The notes under the pieces were generated by a model. It searched no databases. It was not told the DNA's origin and saw only the letters and a list, made by a program, of their open reading frames with translations. A DNA stretch of 64,000 nt from Pseudomonadales bacterium. GTDB lineage: Bacteria > Pseudomonadota > Gammaproteobacteria > Pseudomonadales > Azotimanducaceae. The DNA is taken from the NCBI GenBank assembly GCA_028285415.1, contig JANQPF010000013.1:124001-188000 (forward strand). Reading direction: 5' to 3'. A program made the translations under genes and the position numbers. Of the stretch, positions 5,495 to 15,384 are shown piece by piece; position 1 is the first letter of the stretch, and each line of letters starts with the position of its first letter.

Positions 5495-5512
5495 ACAAGC
5501 GCTATAGCTTGT
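5495..5512. terminator. Hairpin between convergent genes, possible bidirectional terminator
   Basis: ACAAGC and GCTTGT form a perfect 6-bp stem around a GCTATA loop, flanked by GAAA and TTTC that can extend the stem with one bulge. It lies between the facing ends of the RND exporter and the MORN-C13 gene, and the stop codon of the latter sits in the loop. On the minus strand the stem is followed by TTTCTTC, which is moderately U-rich. Confidence 0.5.
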
Positions 5513-7118
5513 GTTTCCGATACGCTTCACCAATCCAGAGCTGAGGTTGTGACGGTTCGTACTCTTCACTCAGTTCTCGCTGCGTTACAGCTTCCAGAGC
5601 AATCTGAAACGCCTCCTCGAGGTTACGATTCGCCTGAATGCCCTGCTGCAACAGCGCCTCGCCGAAGTAGGTGAGCTCAGCGTCATCGCTACAGCCAAAC
5701 GAGGTGTTGTCAGCGCTTGCCGAGGTCATGATCAAACTGTGCGGATCCTTGAGGGATTCAATCAGGCTCCCGGAGAAACACGCTGACAAGATCAGCGCCC
5801 GCCACTTGATACCCGCACGATCGAGACTCTCTTTCAGGAAGCGGCCGTCAATATTGCGCAGGGATACACCCGGGTAGGTGACACTCAACTCCCCGTCCCT
5901 GGATCCATGGCTGGTGACATACAGGAACAACACGTCTTCTTCATTCATCCTGTCAGCAATTGCACCAAACACGCCGTCCAGATTCGTACGAATGGCAAGT
6001 GGCAACTCAGAATGCGTTTTCGGATTGTTGGAAAGGAGTGCAACCGCTGATACGTGCGGCGTCAACAAGCCGCTACGCTTGCGGAGCAGCTCGATTTCGT
6101 TGAAGAAAACGTCCTGTCCACCGTAAGGTGCCGCGCCGACGATGTACCAATCTTCACGATCAGGTACGCCCGCCGCCACGCGATCGAGCGTGCGCGCTAC
6201 GTGTTCGTTCTGGGCAAAAAATACACTCTCTACGTCAGGCAGGGACAGTCCACTGGGGATCAGGGATGAGGCGTTTTCTCCGGCGAAAAAACCATTCTGC
6301 CAGCGGCCGTTGACCTCCGTCGGCTCTTCCCCGCGATAGAGCGTACCTTCCCCATCGTACCGGCCGTAAGAAAAGCCGCCGCTGTATCGTTCTCCATCCG
6401 ATTTCCACAGTTCCCCCTGCCCATCGAATCGTCCGTAGGAGAACTCTCCAACGTACCGGGTGCCGTCGGCATACGTAAATTCGCCCCGTCCATGCGGTTC
6501 CCAATACTCGACCTCGCCTTCGTAGCGATCGCCGGATGCATAGTCGATGACCCCCTCGCCATGAAACGAGCCGTTGTCGAAGCTACCCGAATAACGAGTT
6601 CCGTCCACCGTCACGAACTCACCTGCGCCGTGGAACAGCCAGTTATCCAGCCCGCCTTCGTAGCGGGATTCACCCGCGAGCTCCACGACGAACGCACCCG
6701 TCGGCTGGCCATAGTCGAACTCGCCCTGGTATCGATCTCCCTGGGCAGACTCGTACACGCCCGCTCCATGAGGCTGCCATGCGGACATCTGACCTTCATA
6801 GCGGTCGCCGTGAACGTACTCGATGACCCCGGTACCGTTCGCACCCTCCTGAAACGTGCCATGCACCTTCGTACCATGGTGAAACGCCGCTTCAGCATGG
6901 CCATGCAGCAGTCCTTTCTCAAATTCTCCCGCAACGCGATCCCCGCTGGGGGAGACAATCTCACCTTCACCGTGGAACAGGCCATCCACCAGCGGTCCGT
7001 CATAGACCGATCCATCCGGGAGAAGGACGGAGTCTATGTCGCCTTGGGCAACGGCGGAAACAGAAAACAGGCAGGCGAGCGGGAGCAAAAGTCGGCGAGC
7101 AAACACATCATCATCCAT
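5502..7118 (-). CDS. Secreted MORN-repeat protein with C-terminal C13 (legumain-like) cysteine peptidase domain
   Basis: The 538-residue product starts with a signal peptide (Arg-Arg then LLLPLACLFSVSAVA, cleavage about residue 24). Residues 30-285 are about ten MORN-type repeats of around 23 residues with the pattern GDRYEGE-x-x-x-x-x-x-HGxG. Residues 320-530 match the C13 peptidase family: the catalytic His404 lies in YVTSHGSRDG, Cys447 lies in LILSACFSGS, and the SFGCSDD and TYFG motifs follow. Both catalytic residues are intact. MORN repeats usually mediate membrane or protein contacts, so they probably position the protease in the periplasm. The substrate is unknown and no partner gene is adjacent. 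The ATG at 7118 has only a weak ribosome site. Confidence 0.85.
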   Translation of the reverse strand: MDDDVFARRLLLPLACLFSVSAVAQGDIDSVLLPDGSVYDGPLVDGLFHGEGEIVSPSGDRVAGEFEKGLLHGHAEAAFHHGTKVHGTFQEGANGTGVIEYVHGDRYEGQMSAWQPHGAGVYESAQGDRYQGEFDYGQPTGAFVVELAGESRYEGGLDNWLFHGAGEFVTVDGTRYSGSFDNGSFHGEGVIDYASGDRYEGEVEYWEPHGRGEFTYADGTRYVGEFSYGRFDGQGELWKSDGERYSGGFSYGRYDGEGTLYRGEEPTEVNGRWQNGFFAGENASSLIPSGLSLPDVESVFFAQNEHVARTLDRVAAGVPDREDWYIVGAAPYGGQDVFFNEIELLRKRSGLLTPHVSAVALLSNNPKTHSELPLAIRTNLDGVFGAIADRMNEEDVLFLYVTSHGSRDGELSVTYPGVSLRNIDGRFLKESLDRAGIKWRALILSACFSGSLIESLKDPHSLIMTSASADNTSFGCSDDAELTYFGEALLQQGIQANRNLEEAFQIALEAVTQRELSEEYEPSQPQLWIGEAYRKHKL

Positions 7119-8796: not shown

Positions 8797-9675
8797 TCAG
8801 GGATGCACCGCCAGCACGTCGGTGACGGCTTTGGTGAGTATCCGCTCAGCGGAGTTACCAACGCCAACCTTCTGTTTGACTCGATGTGAATAGGAACCGA
8901 GCACCAGCAGGTCTGCTTTCAGCTTGCGCGCGGTTTGTGCAACCACTTTGCCGACCTTGCCGACCGGCAGGTGGATGCGGGACTTCGGAATGTCGTACGG
9001 CTTCAGGAGGCGATTCAGCTCAGGCGTCACGCGCTCGACAATCTTCTTTTTGGACACCGTCTCGTTGAGGACGTCCAGGTCCCGCAATACCTGAGATATC
9101 TCCACTGCGAATACCACGTGTACCTCTGCCTCGTGCAGTTTCGCGAAGACGTGCGCGGCGTCGAGCACTTTGCAGTTCAGGTGCCGGTGCTTGGTATCGT
9201 TGTGGCGCAAGTCGATCGCCGCCACGATCTTACCCGAGCGCCGCTTTTTTCCCGACGTAAAGAGGAGCGGCGCCTGGCAGGTTTCGAGCAGCGTCCAGTC
9301 CGTCGGGGTGTGCATGAGGGATTTGGTCTTGTTGACCGTCTTCACGATCAGGTCCACGGGCCGCTCGGCGACTTCGTCCGTCACCCAATCGCCGATGTCG
9401 TGTTCCCAGACAACTCGCTGGCGCACCTTACCTTCGTCACCGACAACCCCGCCGAGCCATTCTTTGCGTTCCTCGACGAGCGTGTGTCTGAGTTTCTTCC
9501 GCGCGGGTGCGTCCAGCACCGCCTGGTTTTCACACATGGCGTTCCAGCAAAAAGACACCGCGTCAACCCGCGCATTGGTCAGACCCTTGAGCTCCAGGGT
9601 CCGACGCCAGGCCAGCTGTTCGTGCTTCGGCTTGTCCAGAATGGTCAGGATCTTGGCGTTGTGCGTCAGATTCAT
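8797..9675 (-). CDS. Tandem universal stress protein, UspE-like
   Basis: The 292-residue protein has two Usp domains (about 1-145 and 146-292), the second closing with LVLGSYSHRVKQKVGVGNSAERIL. This is the layout of UspE, implicated in stress survival and adhesion. The first domain lacks a clear glycine-rich nucleotide loop (VKTVNKTKSLMHTPTDW instead), as in UspE proteins. The gene converges with the cytochrome gene, leaving 30 nt. A near-palindrome ATTTTCC-N7-GGAAATT (9735-9755) lies upstream, and its role is unknown. Confidence 0.85.
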   Translation of the reverse strand: MNLTHNAKILTILDKPKHEQLAWRRTLELKGLTNARVDAVSFCWNAMCENQAVLDAPARKKLRHTLVEERKEWLGGVVGDEGKVRQRVVWEHDIGDWVTDEVAERPVDLIVKTVNKTKSLMHTPTDWTLLETCQAPLLFTSGKKRRSGKIVAAIDLRHNDTKHRHLNCKVLDAAHVFAKLHEAEVHVVFAVEISQVLRDLDVLNETVSKKKIVERVTPELNRLLKPYDIPKSRIHLPVGKVGKVVAQTARKLKADLLVLGSYSHRVKQKVGVGNSAERILTKAVTDVLAVHP

Positions 9676-10556: not shown

Positions 10557-12476
10557 ATGGCTCAGATACCAGATAATCCGAGATTTCAGCTGGGGTATTC
10601 AGATACGTTCCGAATCCTCTGGCCGTACGTCAAACGCAACTTCATGAACCAGGTAAACGGTATCTGGTTCATTGTTGTTTACCTCATCGTTTTTCAGCTG
10701 CTGATCCTGCAGCTGCCTATCGCCTATGCCGGGATGATTGCCTTCGGCATCTTCATTGTCGCCGTAGGCCTGATGTTCTTCATGGAAGGACTGCGCTTGG
10801 GACTCATGCCCCTCGGTGAAGAGATCGGCAGCGTGTTGCCGAAAAACAGCAGAATGCCGGTCATTCTCGTGTTTGCTTTTTTACTCGGTGCGGGCGCCAC
10901 GTTCGCAGAACCCGCAATTGCAGTGCTGAAGACCGCCGGAGCCGGCGTCAAACCGCACGAAGCGCCCCTCCTTTACAGCCTGCTGAACGATTTCTCCGGG
11001 CAGCTGGTCACCGCTGTCGGGGTTGGCGTCGGTTTTGCGGTGATGCTCGGGGTGCTGCGCTTCTTTTTCGGCTGGCCGCTGAAATACCTGGCCATGCCAG
11101 CCGTCGGCGCACTGCTGGGGCTGTCGTTCTACTTCAGTCAGGTCCCCGTGCTCGCCGACGTGCTGGGCCTCGCCTGGGACTGTGGCGCCGTCACCACCGG
11201 CCCGGTTACCGTGCCGCTGGTTCTGGCTCTGGGTATCGGCGTCTGCCGCGTCGTCAGCGGAGACTCAGGCAGCGGAGGCAATTCGGGATTCGGCATCGTC
11301 ACGCTGGCATCCCTCTTTCCGATCGTCGCCGTGCTGCTGCTGGCTCTGTTTCACCACGGCGCAGAAGACTACTGGGGTGCGAAGAACTACGCCGGGGACA
11401 TGCAGACCGACGTTGCTGAAGTGCAGAGCGCAAGCGAGACGATCACCCTGGAGAAAACCCTCGAACCCATTACCGAGGCTGAATTCAACGCGTACGTCAC
11501 GTCCGGCCAGCTGCCCGAGGGCTACGAGCTTGCCATGCACGACGGCACCGCGCGCCTGGTAAACGGCAAGATTGAGGTCATGAATCCGGAGATGGTCATC
11601 ACCAAGCCTTACCGCAGGGACTTCACCTTCACCGGGGAGAAAAACTGGGACGACACAACCTCGTTTTCCACAGCCATGGAAACTGCGCTCATGGACGCGC
11701 TGCGCGCCATCATCCCGCTGTGCCTCTTCCTCTACGTTGTGCTGCGCCTGGTGCTCCGCCAGCGCATGAACGCGCAGAACGACGTTGGTATTGGTGTCAT
11801 TTTCGCATTTGCCGGGATGACGCTGTTTGGCCTCGGCATTGCGCTCGGTCTCACCCCGCTGGGTGGCCAGCTTGGCAGCAACGTGCCGGTGGCTTTCGCA
11901 GAGATCATCCCCTGGGGACTGGATCACGTCGAAGGTCCGCTCTATGTCGACTACGGCAAAATCGTGGCAATCGGCTTCGCGTTCTTCCTGGGTTACGGCG
12001 CAACGCTGGCAGAGCCTGCCCTGAACGCCCTGGGTGATACCGTCGAGCGGATCACCGTGGGCGCTTTCCGTAAGAAGCTCCTGATGCAGAGCGTCGCCAT
12101 CGGCGTGGCCCTCGGCATCGCCGCCGGCATCGTGAAGATGGCCTACAACCTGCCGCTCTTCTGGATGCTGGCACCACCCTACCTGCTGGTGCTCGTGCTG
12201 ACCTGGTTCTCTGACCACGACTTCGTCAACTTCAGCTGGGACAGCGCCGGTGTGACCACCGGACCCATCACCGTGCCGCTCGTTCTTGCGATGGGCCTCG
12301 GTGTCGGCGCCAACATTCCCGGCGTCTCGGACGGCTTCGGGATCCTGGCGCTCGCGTCGGTTGGACCCATTCTCACGGTGCTGAGCGTTGGCCTCTACAC
12401 CCAGCGCAAACAGCGCACGGTGTCTAAGGTTGGCGAAGACACCGTCGATGGACTCATGCAAGCGGAGGTGAACTGA
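10557..12476 (+). CDS. DUF1538 integral membrane protein, internally duplicated, putative transporter
   Basis: The 639-residue protein has two homologous membrane halves separated by a soluble insert (about residues 290-365). Paired motifs are GAGATFAEPAI and GYGATLAEPAL, LMPLGEEIGS and LTPLGGQLGS, and CGAVTTGPVTVPLVLALG and SAGVTTGPITVPLVLAMG. A repeated TTGPxTVPLVLA core in each half suggests a pseudo-twofold pore or carrier. No function is established for DUF1538. The ATG at 10557 follows a GGAAGG ribosome site. Its TGA overlaps the ATG of the PII-like gene (TGATG), so the two proteins are probably made together. Confidence 0.8.
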   Translation: MAQIPDNPRFQLGYSDTFRILWPYVKRNFMNQVNGIWFIVVYLIVFQLLILQLPIAYAGMIAFGIFIVAVGLMFFMEGLRLGLMPLGEEIGSVLPKNSRMPVILVFAFLLGAGATFAEPAIAVLKTAGAGVKPHEAPLLYSLLNDFSGQLVTAVGVGVGFAVMLGVLRFFFGWPLKYLAMPAVGALLGLSFYFSQVPVLADVLGLAWDCGAVTTGPVTVPLVLALGIGVCRVVSGDSGSGGNSGFGIVTLASLFPIVAVLLLALFHHGAEDYWGAKNYAGDMQTDVAEVQSASETITLEKTLEPITEAEFNAYVTSGQLPEGYELAMHDGTARLVNGKIEVMNPEMVITKPYRRDFTFTGEKNWDDTTSFSTAMETALMDALRAIIPLCLFLYVVLRLVLRQRMNAQNDVGIGVIFAFAGMTLFGLGIALGLTPLGGQLGSNVPVAFAEIIPWGLDHVEGPLYVDYGKIVAIGFAFFLGYGATLAEPALNALGDTVERITVGAFRKKLLMQSVAIGVALGIAAGIVKMAYNLPLFWMLAPPYLLVLVLTWFSDHDFVNFSWDSAGVTTGPITVPLVLAMGLGVGANIPGVSDGFGILALASVGPILTVLSVGLYTQRKQRTVSKVGEDTVDGLMQAEVN

Positions 12477-13672
12477 TGTTTACTCAAGATCATGCCGTAT
12501 CCATGGTAACCGCGGTCCTGCCGACACCCAGCGTTGCGCCGGTATCGGCAGCGGTGCTCCACGAACCCGGCAGCAGCGCGCTCGTCTGGCAGGCCCGCGG
12601 CACGCTCCTGCACGATCACTGGTGGAGACGCTGGCTGCCGCCGATCAGCCCGGCAAAAACCATGATGCACCTGCTCGTACCCAATAGCGAAGTCCCGCGC
12701 CTGGTCAGCACCATCGTGGAACACGGCAGGCTCCATCAGCAGGCGACGGGCGCGGTGTTTTCCACGCCGTGCGAACACGCCTATTTCGGGACGCACTTCC
12801 ACGCCTGGCCGGAGCGCGAAGGTGCCGGCGTTGTGCAATCGAGCCACAACCTCACCGAAAATCTCAACATCATCTACTGCATTGTCGGCCACCAGCTGTC
12901 CGATCGCGTGAGCAAAGCCGCCATCAACGCCGGTGCCCACGGACCCATCGTCTATTACAGCGAAGGCCGTGGTCTGCGCGACCGGTTGGGCTGGCTGCGC
13001 ATCACCAAGGAGCACGAAAAAGAAGTACTGATGGTGATTGCGGACGAGAGTGACGCCGACGAGGTATTCGACGCGATGGCCAAGGCCGGCGAGCTGCACC
13101 TGCCGGGCAGAGGTTTCATGTACCGCATGATCATCGACCGTGGCATGTTTCACCTCCCCTCACGGGTTTCGCACCATCACTACGAAGCCAACATGCAGCA
13201 GATCATCAACGCCATTGATCACCTGAGCGGACATACCCACTGGCGCGACCAGGCGGTGTTCAACGTCGGGGGAGAAGGACGCGGTGTTGGCCTGGAAGAG
13301 CTGGCCAGTGAACGCCGGGAGCTGCAGGACCAGGTCTGTCTGTCAGCAATTGCCACGCGCGATCAGTGCCCGGCAGTCATGGACATGCTGCTCGACGCCG
13401 GTGCGCCCGGTCTGAACGTCACTTACGCACGCTTTGCCGCGCACGAGGAAAGCACGGGGATGGCCGGCGCGCGTCTCAACGAGGAATACGGGATGCTGCG
13501 ATGTATCACCGACAAGTCCGTGGCTGCTGAGATCTGCTCGCTGGTAGAGCGTGACGCCGAGCATAAGGGTCTGACCGACCTTGGGATCTTTACCAACGAT
13601 GTGCCAAGCGTAGCCACCTACGTTCCCGGCAAGAAGGATTACCGCCGCCAACCGCTGGCGGAGGCGTCGTAG
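12476..13672 (+). CDS. Multi-domain PII-like protein
   Basis: The 398-residue soluble protein contains repeated PII-superfamily-like units. The clearest (about 130-222) has AAINAGAHGPIVYYSEGRG, then EHEKEVLMVIAD and LPGRGFMYRMII, which mirror the PII B-loop (GAxGGT..GRG), the EKE strand and the C-loop. A second unit (about 285-385) has LLDAGAPGLNVTYARF and a degenerate rest. A third, weak unit lies at about 60-125. PII proteins sense ATP/ADP, 2-oxoglutarate or other small effectors and gate transporters. Overlap with the DUF1538 gene suggests it regulates that protein. The effector is unknown. Confidence 0.65.
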   Translation: MFTQDHAVSMVTAVLPTPSVAPVSAAVLHEPGSSALVWQARGTLLHDHWWRRWLPPISPAKTMMHLLVPNSEVPRLVSTIVEHGRLHQQATGAVFSTPCEHAYFGTHFHAWPEREGAGVVQSSHNLTENLNIIYCIVGHQLSDRVSKAAINAGAHGPIVYYSEGRGLRDRLGWLRITKEHEKEVLMVIADESDADEVFDAMAKAGELHLPGRGFMYRMIIDRGMFHLPSRVSHHHYEANMQQIINAIDHLSGHTHWRDQAVFNVGGEGRGVGLEELASERRELQDQVCLSAIATRDQCPAVMDMLLDAGAPGLNVTYARFAAHEESTGMAGARLNEEYGMLRCITDKSVAAEICSLVERDAEHKGLTDLGIFTNDVPSVATYVPGKKDYRRQPLAEAS

Positions 13673-15384
13673 TCCACAAGCCTTGCGCGGCGCCAGCCGC
13701 GCAAGGCATTAACTAGATACAACCCTTCGATACGCTCCAGCTCCGAGATTGCCAGAGAGCGCTCCTGGACTTCGCCCGCGGCCACGAGCTGGCCGCGCAA
13801 CGTACCCGGCAGGAGACCGTCGCTGACCGGCGGCGTAAACCGCTCACCCTGCATTTCGTAGACCACGTTGGCTATCGCCGACTCCGTGATCAGACCGTGC
13901 TCGTTGAAGAGCAACGCCTCACAGGTGGCCGGGACTTCCGCCGCGGCCTGTTCATAGACTTGTCTGTGTGTTGTCTTGTGATAAAGCAACATGTCGCTCA
14001 CCGACACCGCGGTCGCAGCCAACGCCACCGGTTGCCACGGTCCGTCCGTCGGCAAGATCTCAACGGTCACCCCCACCGACCCTTGGGCATCGAGGGTCAA
14101 ACGCAGACGGTGAGCGCCTGAATCCAGTTGTGCGGTGGCAGCCTCAATCGTCTCGATGACGCGAGGGTGATCCAGGTGGAAACCAAATAGCTCCGCGCTG
14201 CGGGTGAGTCTTGCCAGATGAGCGTCCAGCAGCGCCACCCGACCGGCTTCGACGCGCATGGTTTCAAGCAGCTCAAAAGCCGGAAGCGGTTCGAGGATCT
14301 TCGCCTTGTCGCGTCTCTCCTCGAGCTCCGCGTCCACGTTCGAATCCCAGACGATACCGCCGCCGACACCGTACTCGGCGACATGGCTCTCGCGATCCAC
14401 CCAGGCCGTGCGGATTGCCACGTTGAACCGGTAACGGCGCTTAGGTGCAAGAACGCCAATGGTACCGCTGTAGAGCTCCCGCGCTCCCGGCTCCAGGTCG
14501 CGGATGAACTGCATGCTCGCGTGCTTGGGCGCGCCGGTGATCGAGGCGGCAGGAAAGAGCGCGGCAAAGAGGCTCGCCAGATCCGTGGTCGTCTGCGCGG
14601 TCACGGTTGAGGTCATCTGCCACACCCGGGGGTGGGCGGAAACCGAGAAAAGCTCCGGCACCTTGACGCTGCCCGGCTCCGCGACGCGGCCAAGATCGTT
14701 ACGAACCATGTCGGTGATCATCAGATTCTCCGCCCGGTCCTTCCGCGACGCGCCGAGCTGGTCGCCCGCCGCCCGGTCCTCCTCGAGCGTCGCGCCACGC
14801 GGCGAGGTTCCTTTCATCGGCATAGTCGTGAGATTTGCGCCAGAAAGCGCAAAGAAGAGCTCCGGAGAAGCTGAAACCACCGCAAAATCCGGGTGCTCGA
14901 GATAAGCGCCGTGCCGCGCTCCAGCACAGATTGCGTCAAAGAGGGCATGAGGATCGTGGCAGCGCGCCTGTAAACGGGTCGTGTAATTGACCTGATAAAC
15001 GTCGCCCGCGCCGATGGCTGCCTTCAGCGTGGCATACCCCGATCGGTACTGCGCCTCGCTTTCGGTGTCCTGCCAGAGGATACCCTTGCCGTTGCCAGTG
15101 GGCGGCGGTGTCTCTTCCCGCCTGCGATACAGCGTGAAAGCAACCAGCGGCAGCCTGCCCGGTTCATGCGCGGCGAAAGTGTCGTCAAAGGCCCGAGCTG
15201 CCTCGTACGTCACAAAGCCCACGGCGTAGAGTCCGTGCGCTTCGACGGCGGACTCCACCGCAGTCAGAGTCCGGGCAACGGCTTCGAGATCACGACAGGC
15301 ATGCACCGCCACCGGCTCGGCATAGACATGCCAGGCGCGCGCATCGGGATCGTGAACTATGGCTTGAGTAAAGGGCTTGAACAT
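13639..15384 (-). CDS. pabB: Aminodeoxychorismate synthase component I fused to aminodeoxychorismate lyase (PabB-PabC)
   Basis: Residues about 110-365 are the chorismate-binding PabB domain, with PMKGTSPRG (Lys191), DMVRNDLGRV and SITGAPK (281-287). Residues about 370-581 are a fold-type IV PLP lyase with the likely Schiff-base Lys470 (YHKTTHR), ESAIANVV and LVNALRGW. Together these convert chorismate to p-aminobenzoate for folate, needing only a PabA amidotransferase encoded elsewhere. The last 34 bases overlap the convergent PII-like gene. The C-terminal LVNALRGW motif shows the overlap is genuine coding sequence. Confidence 0.9.
   Translation of the reverse strand: MFKPFTQAIVHDPDARAWHVYAEPVAVHACRDLEAVARTLTAVESAVEAHGLYAVGFVTYEAARAFDDTFAAHEPGRLPLVAFTLYRRREETPPPTGNGKGILWQDTESEAQYRSGYATLKAAIGAGDVYQVNYTTRLQARCHDPHALFDAICAGARHGAYLEHPDFAVVSASPELFFALSGANLTTMPMKGTSPRGATLEEDRAAGDQLGASRKDRAENLMITDMVRNDLGRVAEPGSVKVPELFSVSAHPRVWQMTSTVTAQTTTDLASLFAALFPAASITGAPKHASMQFIRDLEPGARELYSGTIGVLAPKRRYRFNVAIRTAWVDRESHVAEYGVGGGIVWDSNVDAELEERRDKAKILEPLPAFELLETMRVEAGRVALLDAHLARLTRSAELFGFHLDHPRVIETIEAATAQLDSGAHRLRLTLDAQGSVGVTVEILPTDGPWQPVALAATAVSVSDMLLYHKTTHRQVYEQAAAEVPATCEALLFNEHGLITESAIANVVYEMQGERFTPPVSDGLLPGTLRGQLVAAGEVQERSLAISELERIEGLYLVNALRGWRRARLVDYDASASGWRR
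13680..13707. repeat. Perfect 12-bp inverted repeat in the pabB 3' end
   Basis: GCCTTGCGCGGC and its exact complement GCCGCGCAAGGC flank a GCCA loop. The hairpin lies just after the stop of the PII-like gene and inside the last codons of the convergent pabB gene. No U-tract follows on either strand, so it is not a classic intrinsic terminator, but it could halt transcription or protect the 3' end of the DUF1538/PII-like mRNA. Confidence 0.6.

Follow-up and report, generated by a model that had tools for sequence, protein, structure and literature searches.

The window analysed here, a 64,000-nucleotide stretch of contig JANQPF010000013.1 from a Pseudomonadales bacterium of the Azotimanducaceae, carries on its forward strand two adjoining genes that form the subject of this report. 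The first encodes a UmpAB-like membrane protein of 639 amino acids, with two DUF1538 domains in one chain (positions 10557..12476; recognized by PF07556, by NCBIfam matches to its halves, and by alignment), and the second a soluble, three-unit PII-like protein of 398 amino acids (12476..13672; recognized by PF00543, AlphaFold2, and Foldseek). An earlier annotation of the window (here, the original prediction) had described the two genes as overlapping by TGATG, and both open reading frames (ORFs) are indeed present: the UmpAB-like stop codon (TGA, 12474-12476) and the PII start codon (ATG, 12476-12478) share one base, with a ribosome-binding-like GGAGGTG immediately 5' of the overlap (12464..12478 for the junction as a whole, + strand). 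The ATG at 10557 agrees with the starts of aligned relatives. Upstream of the pair, no sigma-70 promoter was found on the + strand; the minus strand gave one site, versus 0.7 expected.

The 639-residue protein matched PF07556 in two stretches (E 4.8e-109), and the core TTGP-TVPLVLA is invariant in both halves of 29 aligned fused proteins, bearing out the earlier description of a duplicated membrane protein with a TTGPxTVPLVLA core in each half. The first half is UmpA-like (residues 30-265; 10644..11351, + strand; NF041627 stretch 29-265) and the second UmpB-like (residues 382-613; 11700..12395, + strand; PF07556 at 390-613, NF041628 at 375-616), with hydropathy predicting 14 membrane segments, seven per half. 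An acidic linker separates them (residues 266-381; 11352..11699, + strand; 21 D/E, 8 K/R), in which the AlphaFold2 model, a weak one (pLDDT 70.3, pTM 0.70), placed four short strands; the same model gave no significant match in the PDB (best E 0.084). Because K+R number 18 in the even loops versus 3 in the odd loops (linker left out), both ends of the protein, including the tail at 614-639, are predicted to be cytosolic and the linker extracytoplasmic. The two halves are thus predicted to lie in opposite membrane orientation, and a PII protein could reach the cytosolic ends; predicted cytosolic loops lie near 80-100, 172-181, 401-411, and 486-507.

A function was assigned to DUF1538 in 2017, when UmpA and UmpB of Halomonas zhaodongensis were described, in the part of that account consulted, as a Na+(Li+,K+)/H+ antiporter (PMC5484666). 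The same part reports that the co-expressed proteins restore salt tolerance to an Escherichia coli strain without three Na+/H+ antiporters, that they form a hetero-dimer by co-immunoprecipitation, and that antiport is active from pH 6.5 to 9.5; it does not mention PII or P-II (PMC5484666). The window protein resembles this pair in its family, its paired halves, and their UmpA-like, UmpB-like order, but differs in being a single chain with an acidic linker and in scoring below both equivalog cut-offs. The original prediction had spoken of a DUF1538 pore for an unknown ion or metabolite; at the family level the ion is known (PMC5484666, in part), and, judged by the UmpAB family, the window protein would be a carrier.

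The 398-residue protein matched PF00543 (P-II) in two stretches at 38.3 bits (curated cut-off, 25). Modelled by AlphaFold2 from a 35-row alignment of three-unit proteins (mean pLDDT 74.0, pTM 0.75), it comprises three beta-alpha-beta-beta-alpha-beta units: U1 (residues 8-104; 12497..12787), also supported by a profile match; U2 (residues 130-226; 12863..13153), which the alignment shows to have a near-invariant T-loop and an LPGRGF B-loop; and U3 (residues 286-381; 13331..13618), the least conserved, all on the + strand. A conserved stretch 3' of U2 (residues 233-258; 13172..13249, + strand), in which the alignment shows QQ...D...G...WR to be invariant, was modelled as a low-confidence helix, and a repeat search found a 35-nucleotide repeat between U2 and U3 (at 12924 and 13392, 74 per cent). 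Among the 50 Foldseek rows listed for the model, 38 were PII or SbtB chains, each with a probability of 1.00 (TM by target mostly 0.6-0.7), and the other 12 were loose matches (rmsd 12.5-22.5 Å). A profile of the alignment, searched against the PDB, returned PII proteins in all 27 matches listed, covering all three units (60-104, 135-222, and 288-393) at weak E-values (0.0026 to 0.62). The PII-like fold anticipated for residues 130-222 and 285-385 was therefore recovered, and the expected "two to three" units number three, as the N-terminal unit (8-104) lies outside those two ranges. The covalent array that had been proposed holds for the PII units among themselves and does not extend to the transporter. 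As a separate observation, PDB entry 9p1x contains two different PII chains (105 and 125 amino acids) in 12 and 6 copies, possibly a mixed PII assembly.

The pairing of the two genes is conserved. Among 97 relatives, DUF1538 occurred in 22 and a match to the 398-residue protein in 18, all of them within those 22; a PII gene adjoined DUF1538 in 21 of the 22, and in the other genome (G031) both genes lie at contig ends. A profile scan of named genomes with the three-unit PII alignment yielded 34 three-unit loci (a single-sequence scan of genome contigs with the 639-residue protein found no relative), and in all 33 that have upstream DNA, DUF1538 directly precedes the PII gene, with a gap of -11 to +97 bases. 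More widely, DUF1538 was present in 126 of 398 genomes sampled from the phylum. An adjacency survey took in 50 genomes from 19 families, with one locus each; in 47 of the 50 loci (46 when a strict gap rule is applied) DUF1538 was followed by a PII gene on its own strand, and among further loci a PII gene stood beside DUF1538 in 17 of 18 (16 by the same rule). The rule misses L118 and L150, whose ORFs as listed begin too far upstream, within the preceding gene, and we kept the counts of 47 and 17; L080, L081, L083, and L084 fail it likewise, and there the gap was measured from the matched start. At three PII genes per 5000 genes, the chance of 47 in 50 is roughly 1e-133, a figure that treats non-independent loci as independent. 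The order umpA-umpB-PII-CBS was found in 11 of the 12 loci nearest the Halomonas UmpA model. Nine plasmid records matched, and the PII gene was 3' of DUF1538 in all seven examined, five of them in Clostridia. The conserved adjacency on which the original prediction had staked its proposal is accordingly present in the relatives, at the three-unit loci, and across the 19 families.

The PII chain might merely be co-expressed with UmpAB and act on another target. Contact between the two proteins is our inference, which leaves room for such a view; however, the adjacency is kept in different phyla and on plasmids and survives the fusion of either partner, and we regard a separate target as improbable. 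In annotated records one gene appears as "DUF1538 domain-containing protein" and the other as "P-II family nitrogen regulator"; the pair can thus be seen in annotation but has no name. Two further observations concern individual loci: at L089, L119, and L133/L147 two DUF1538-PII systems adjoin, the transporter genes being separate in one system and fused in the other, and on a Chelativorans plasmid (L159) the first DUF1538 gene has an annotated length of 273 bases, so short that this operon copy may have decayed.

The loci fall into a graded series of forms. Type I has umpA and umpB (or a short fusion of ~500 amino acids) and one PII gene of ~116 amino acids, usually followed by a gene for a CBS-pair protein, which was seen in 30 of 50 loci (31 by listing), with Pfam confirming CBS in one. 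Type II has a fused UmpAB of ~570-650 amino acids with either a PII gene, IIa, alone (L148-L150) or IIa plus a second, divergent PII gene, IIb (in 12 of the further loci and in L015-L017); the IIb matches are weak in several cases (E as high as 0.005), and in Pfam one IIb scored 17.8 bits and another had no match. Type C, from Clostridia, pairs a fused UmpAB of ~500 amino acids with a PII ORF of 217-305 amino acids, in which two units were found as matches in three of five cases and by eye in the other two. Type III, the form in the window, has a fused UmpAB of ~620-680 amino acids and the three-unit PII; among its carriers is a cultured species, Sinimarinibacterium flocculans (L084). No CBS gene was found 3' of the operon in any of 34 type III or 15 type II stretches.

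In a tree of 198 units, two outgroups included, U1, U2, and U3 each formed one clade of 35 (supports 1.0, 0.956, and 0.999). The monophyly of each unit fits a single fusion, and from these sequences the three-unit fusion looks to have arisen once. The only supported deeper split (0.984) places type I and the outgroups on one side and U1-U3, IIa, and IIb on the other. By mean identity (34 per cent), the units closest to U2 are those of IIa; the grouping of U3 with IIb had a support of 0.17 and that of U1 with U2 a support of 0.915, and IIb is a candidate origin of U1 and U3.

We compared the residues of each unit with the GlnK of the window genome, bearing in mind that alignment of the C-loop is uncertain. 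None of 196 units keeps the Tyr51, Lys90, or Arg101 of GlnK; Arg103 is retained in 3, Gln39 in 16, and Lys58 in 89, and the T-loop spans ~21 letters versus 26 in the genome's own GlnK, i.e., it is about 5 residues shorter. One explanation of the locus is an orthodox GlnB/GlnK nitrogen sensor, responding to ATP/ADP and 2-oxoglutarate and uridylylated at Tyr51, that has gained a new target. The PF00543 match above cut-off is in keeping with it, but the loss of Tyr51, Lys90, and Arg101 makes both GlnK-type ATP/2-oxoglutarate sensing and uridylylation unlikely, and the genome has a separate GlnK beside AmtB; the explanation is largely refuted by sequence, and we consider it very unlikely. The nucleotide and 2-oxoglutarate binding that had been suggested as a check is thus unlikely in the manner of GlnK.

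The same losses (Lys90, Arg101, Arg103, and Gln39), together with the divergence of U1 and U3, would suit a PII array that serves the antiporter as a fixed subunit, for structure or assembly, with decayed pockets and no sensing. Against this stand the retention of the T-loop and of the PG-G B-loop in type I, IIa, and U2 units, the retention of Lys58 in nearly half of the units, and the presence in most type I operons of a CBS-pair gene, a usual nucleotide sensor; a fixed subunit is, we judge, unlikely. A third possibility is a PstA-like receptor for cyclic di-AMP (c-di-AMP), a nucleotide that controls cation transporters in other bacteria. The diadenylate cyclase (DAC) domain, PF02457, was found in none of the 97 relatives, the window genome among them, while 11 of 14 controls matched; c-di-AMP is therefore unlikely, and we rejected this candidate as scarcely credible.

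The units are not equally constrained. Within the three-unit family, mean column entropy was 1.08 bits for U2, 1.64 for U1, and 2.06 for U3, and entropy over the T-loop was 0.36, 1.11, and 2.57 bits, respectively. The T-loop of U2 is by far the most constrained, that of U1 is moderately kept, and that of U3 is free.

We consider it probable that the operon encodes a UmpAB-type cation/proton antiporter with fused subunits, together with a dedicated PII-family regulator in the form of a single-chain pseudo-trimer that gates antiport. The idea of a sensor-transporter unit, put forward in the original prediction, is the best explanation of the locus, with regulation being what we infer. PII proteins act as trimers, and we postulate the packing, the contact, the ligand, and the gating and its sign as follows. 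The PII trimer would have been joined into a single chain, with three units that diverged and would pack as a pseudo-trimer. This chain would dock on the cytosolic face of UmpAB, where a small ligand of the adenine-nucleotide type, bound or released, would switch or slow antiport, in analogy to GlnK on AmtB and SbtB on SbtA. U2 probably supplies the T-loop that makes the main contact with the transporter, while U1 and U3 may mainly complete the ring and lend specificity. The CBS gene of type I operons would point to the same type of ligand, a CBS pair being a usual nucleotide sensor. In favor of the reading stand the three PII-type units, the conserved pairing, the unequal constraint on the units, the predicted cytosolic ends of the transporter, and the two other PII-transporter pairs of the same genome.

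Several observations weigh against this antiporter-regulator reading. First, the UmpA-like half reached 213.8 bits on NF041627 (equivalog cut-off, 490) and the UmpB-like half 181.4 bits on NF041628 (cut-off, 500), versus 352-391 bits on the UmpA model for six separate UmpAs from the survey; because these scores are so far below, we place the fused form on a distant branch, and its ion would be assigned by kinship. Second, the UmpA equivalog cut-off was reached in 0 of 20 and 0 of 369 genomes (class sample), so that the PII neighbor is shown for the 12 nearest loci rather than for H. zhaodongensis. Third, DUF1538 had no PII gene beside it in L123, L124, and L134 of the 50 loci, in L151 of the 18, and in L171 of the 12. 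Fourth, the best three Foldseek rows by E-value were not PII (rmsd 18.8-22.4 Å), the pLDDT of the 398-residue model fell below 50 in the linker at 230-280 and in parts of the T-loops, and the sole basis for the pseudo-trimer is the pTM of 0.75, which for three small units we read as a defined packing. Fifth, part of the Halomonas account indicates that a 4.2-kb clone with three intact ORFs, the last of them umpB, gave UmpAB activity in E. coli (PMC5484666); since no intact ORF follows umpB in it, the PII protein would be a modulator, not needed for activity.

The first of these points also bears on whether the pair is regulatory while the cargo of the fused protein is none of Na+, Li+, and K+. 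The gap between the fused branch and the six separate UmpAs favors another cargo, but the FAEPA and TTGP-TVP cores are common to both halves and to all aligned rows, and we give this possibility a minor, though appreciable, chance.

A bolder form of the antiporter-regulator reading concerns symmetry. According to part of a review, the use of PII seems restricted to transporters able to be trimers (PMC10710835); UmpAB is reported, in the part of its account cited above, as a hetero-dimer (PMC5484666), yet a PII gene stands beside DUF1538 in most of the genomes examined. With a partner that lacks three-fold symmetry, a single T-loop would be enough, and the other two units would be free to drift apart, initially in genes of their own and later within one chain. 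Across the series, the PII partner would thus show a graded loss of three-fold symmetry: a symmetric PII trimer, then separate diverged partners, then a one-time fusion, and finally an asymmetric pseudo-trimer gating a pseudo-dimeric UmpAB mainly through one T-loop. We offer this sequence tentatively, as possible rather than probable. It is our boldest reading, and it would fall if UmpAB hetero-dimers assembled into a trimer.

A PII protein paired with a transporter is a kind of system already known. As in GlnK-AmtB, a soluble PII protein is encoded beside a transporter, and the window genome has a GlnK-AmtB pair as well; however, GlnK and AmtB are described in part of the review as trimers that bind 1:1 (PMC10710835), whereas the window pair has one three-unit chain that has lost the GlnK residues and a transporter whose family is described, in part of its account, as a hetero-dimer (PMC5484666). 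As in SbtB-SbtA, a PII-like protein with a short T-loop is encoded beside an ion-coupled carrier, and SbtB (6mmo) is among the fold matches; in contrast, the transporter family is another one, SbtB has a single unit, and SbtB and SbtA are, in the consulted part of the review, both trimeric (PMC10710835). SbtB is encoded beside SbtA (Sbt_1), while the neighbor here is DUF1538, and an SbtA/SbtB-like pair lies elsewhere in the genome. PstA, as far as the sources consulted in part describe it, shares the PII fold without a nitrogen role, but no c-di-AMP synthase domain was found in the relatives. We found no description of a DUF1538-PII pairing in the open-access papers searched; in PMC7221264 the only "pii" lies inside a motif string. 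As far as our searches show, then, what is new is the systematic pairing of DUF1538/UmpAB with PII, the graded range of its forms, and a PII with three units in a single chain.

The window genome has a single DUF1538 gene (two domain matches at one place) and three PII matches: GlnK beside AmtB, an SbtB-like PII (98 amino acids) beside an Sbt_1 transporter (325 amino acids; L004, contig C12), which is another PII-transporter pair, and the 398-residue chain. Every PII gene of this genome therefore adjoins a transporter gene. Among the genes near the pair, all on the minus strand, a universal stress protein with two Usp stretches is encoded just upstream (8797-9675), and a chorismate-binding enzyme fused to a class IV aminotransferase (13639-15384) shares 34 bases with the PII gene, the two overlapping tail to tail at their 3' ends. 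Farther away, 5502-7118 encodes a 538-residue protein with MORN repeats and a C-terminal, legumain-like Peptidase_C13 domain, a combination unusual in bacteria.

The occurrence of related gene pairs in many bacteria suggests a little-noticed on/off control of such antiporters. If the contact between the partners is real, PII signalling would extend to monovalent cation and pH homeostasis, the DUF1538 family would gain a regulator, and a natural single-chain PII would be at hand for engineering and for probing the role of each unit of the ring. The question can be put to a direct test, since both partners are encoded together and assays for UmpAB are available. If the loss of symmetry is also read correctly, the pair would represent a novel mode of PII signalling, with UmpAB as the first cation/proton antiporter regulated by PII, and would carry PII control beyond trimeric transporters.

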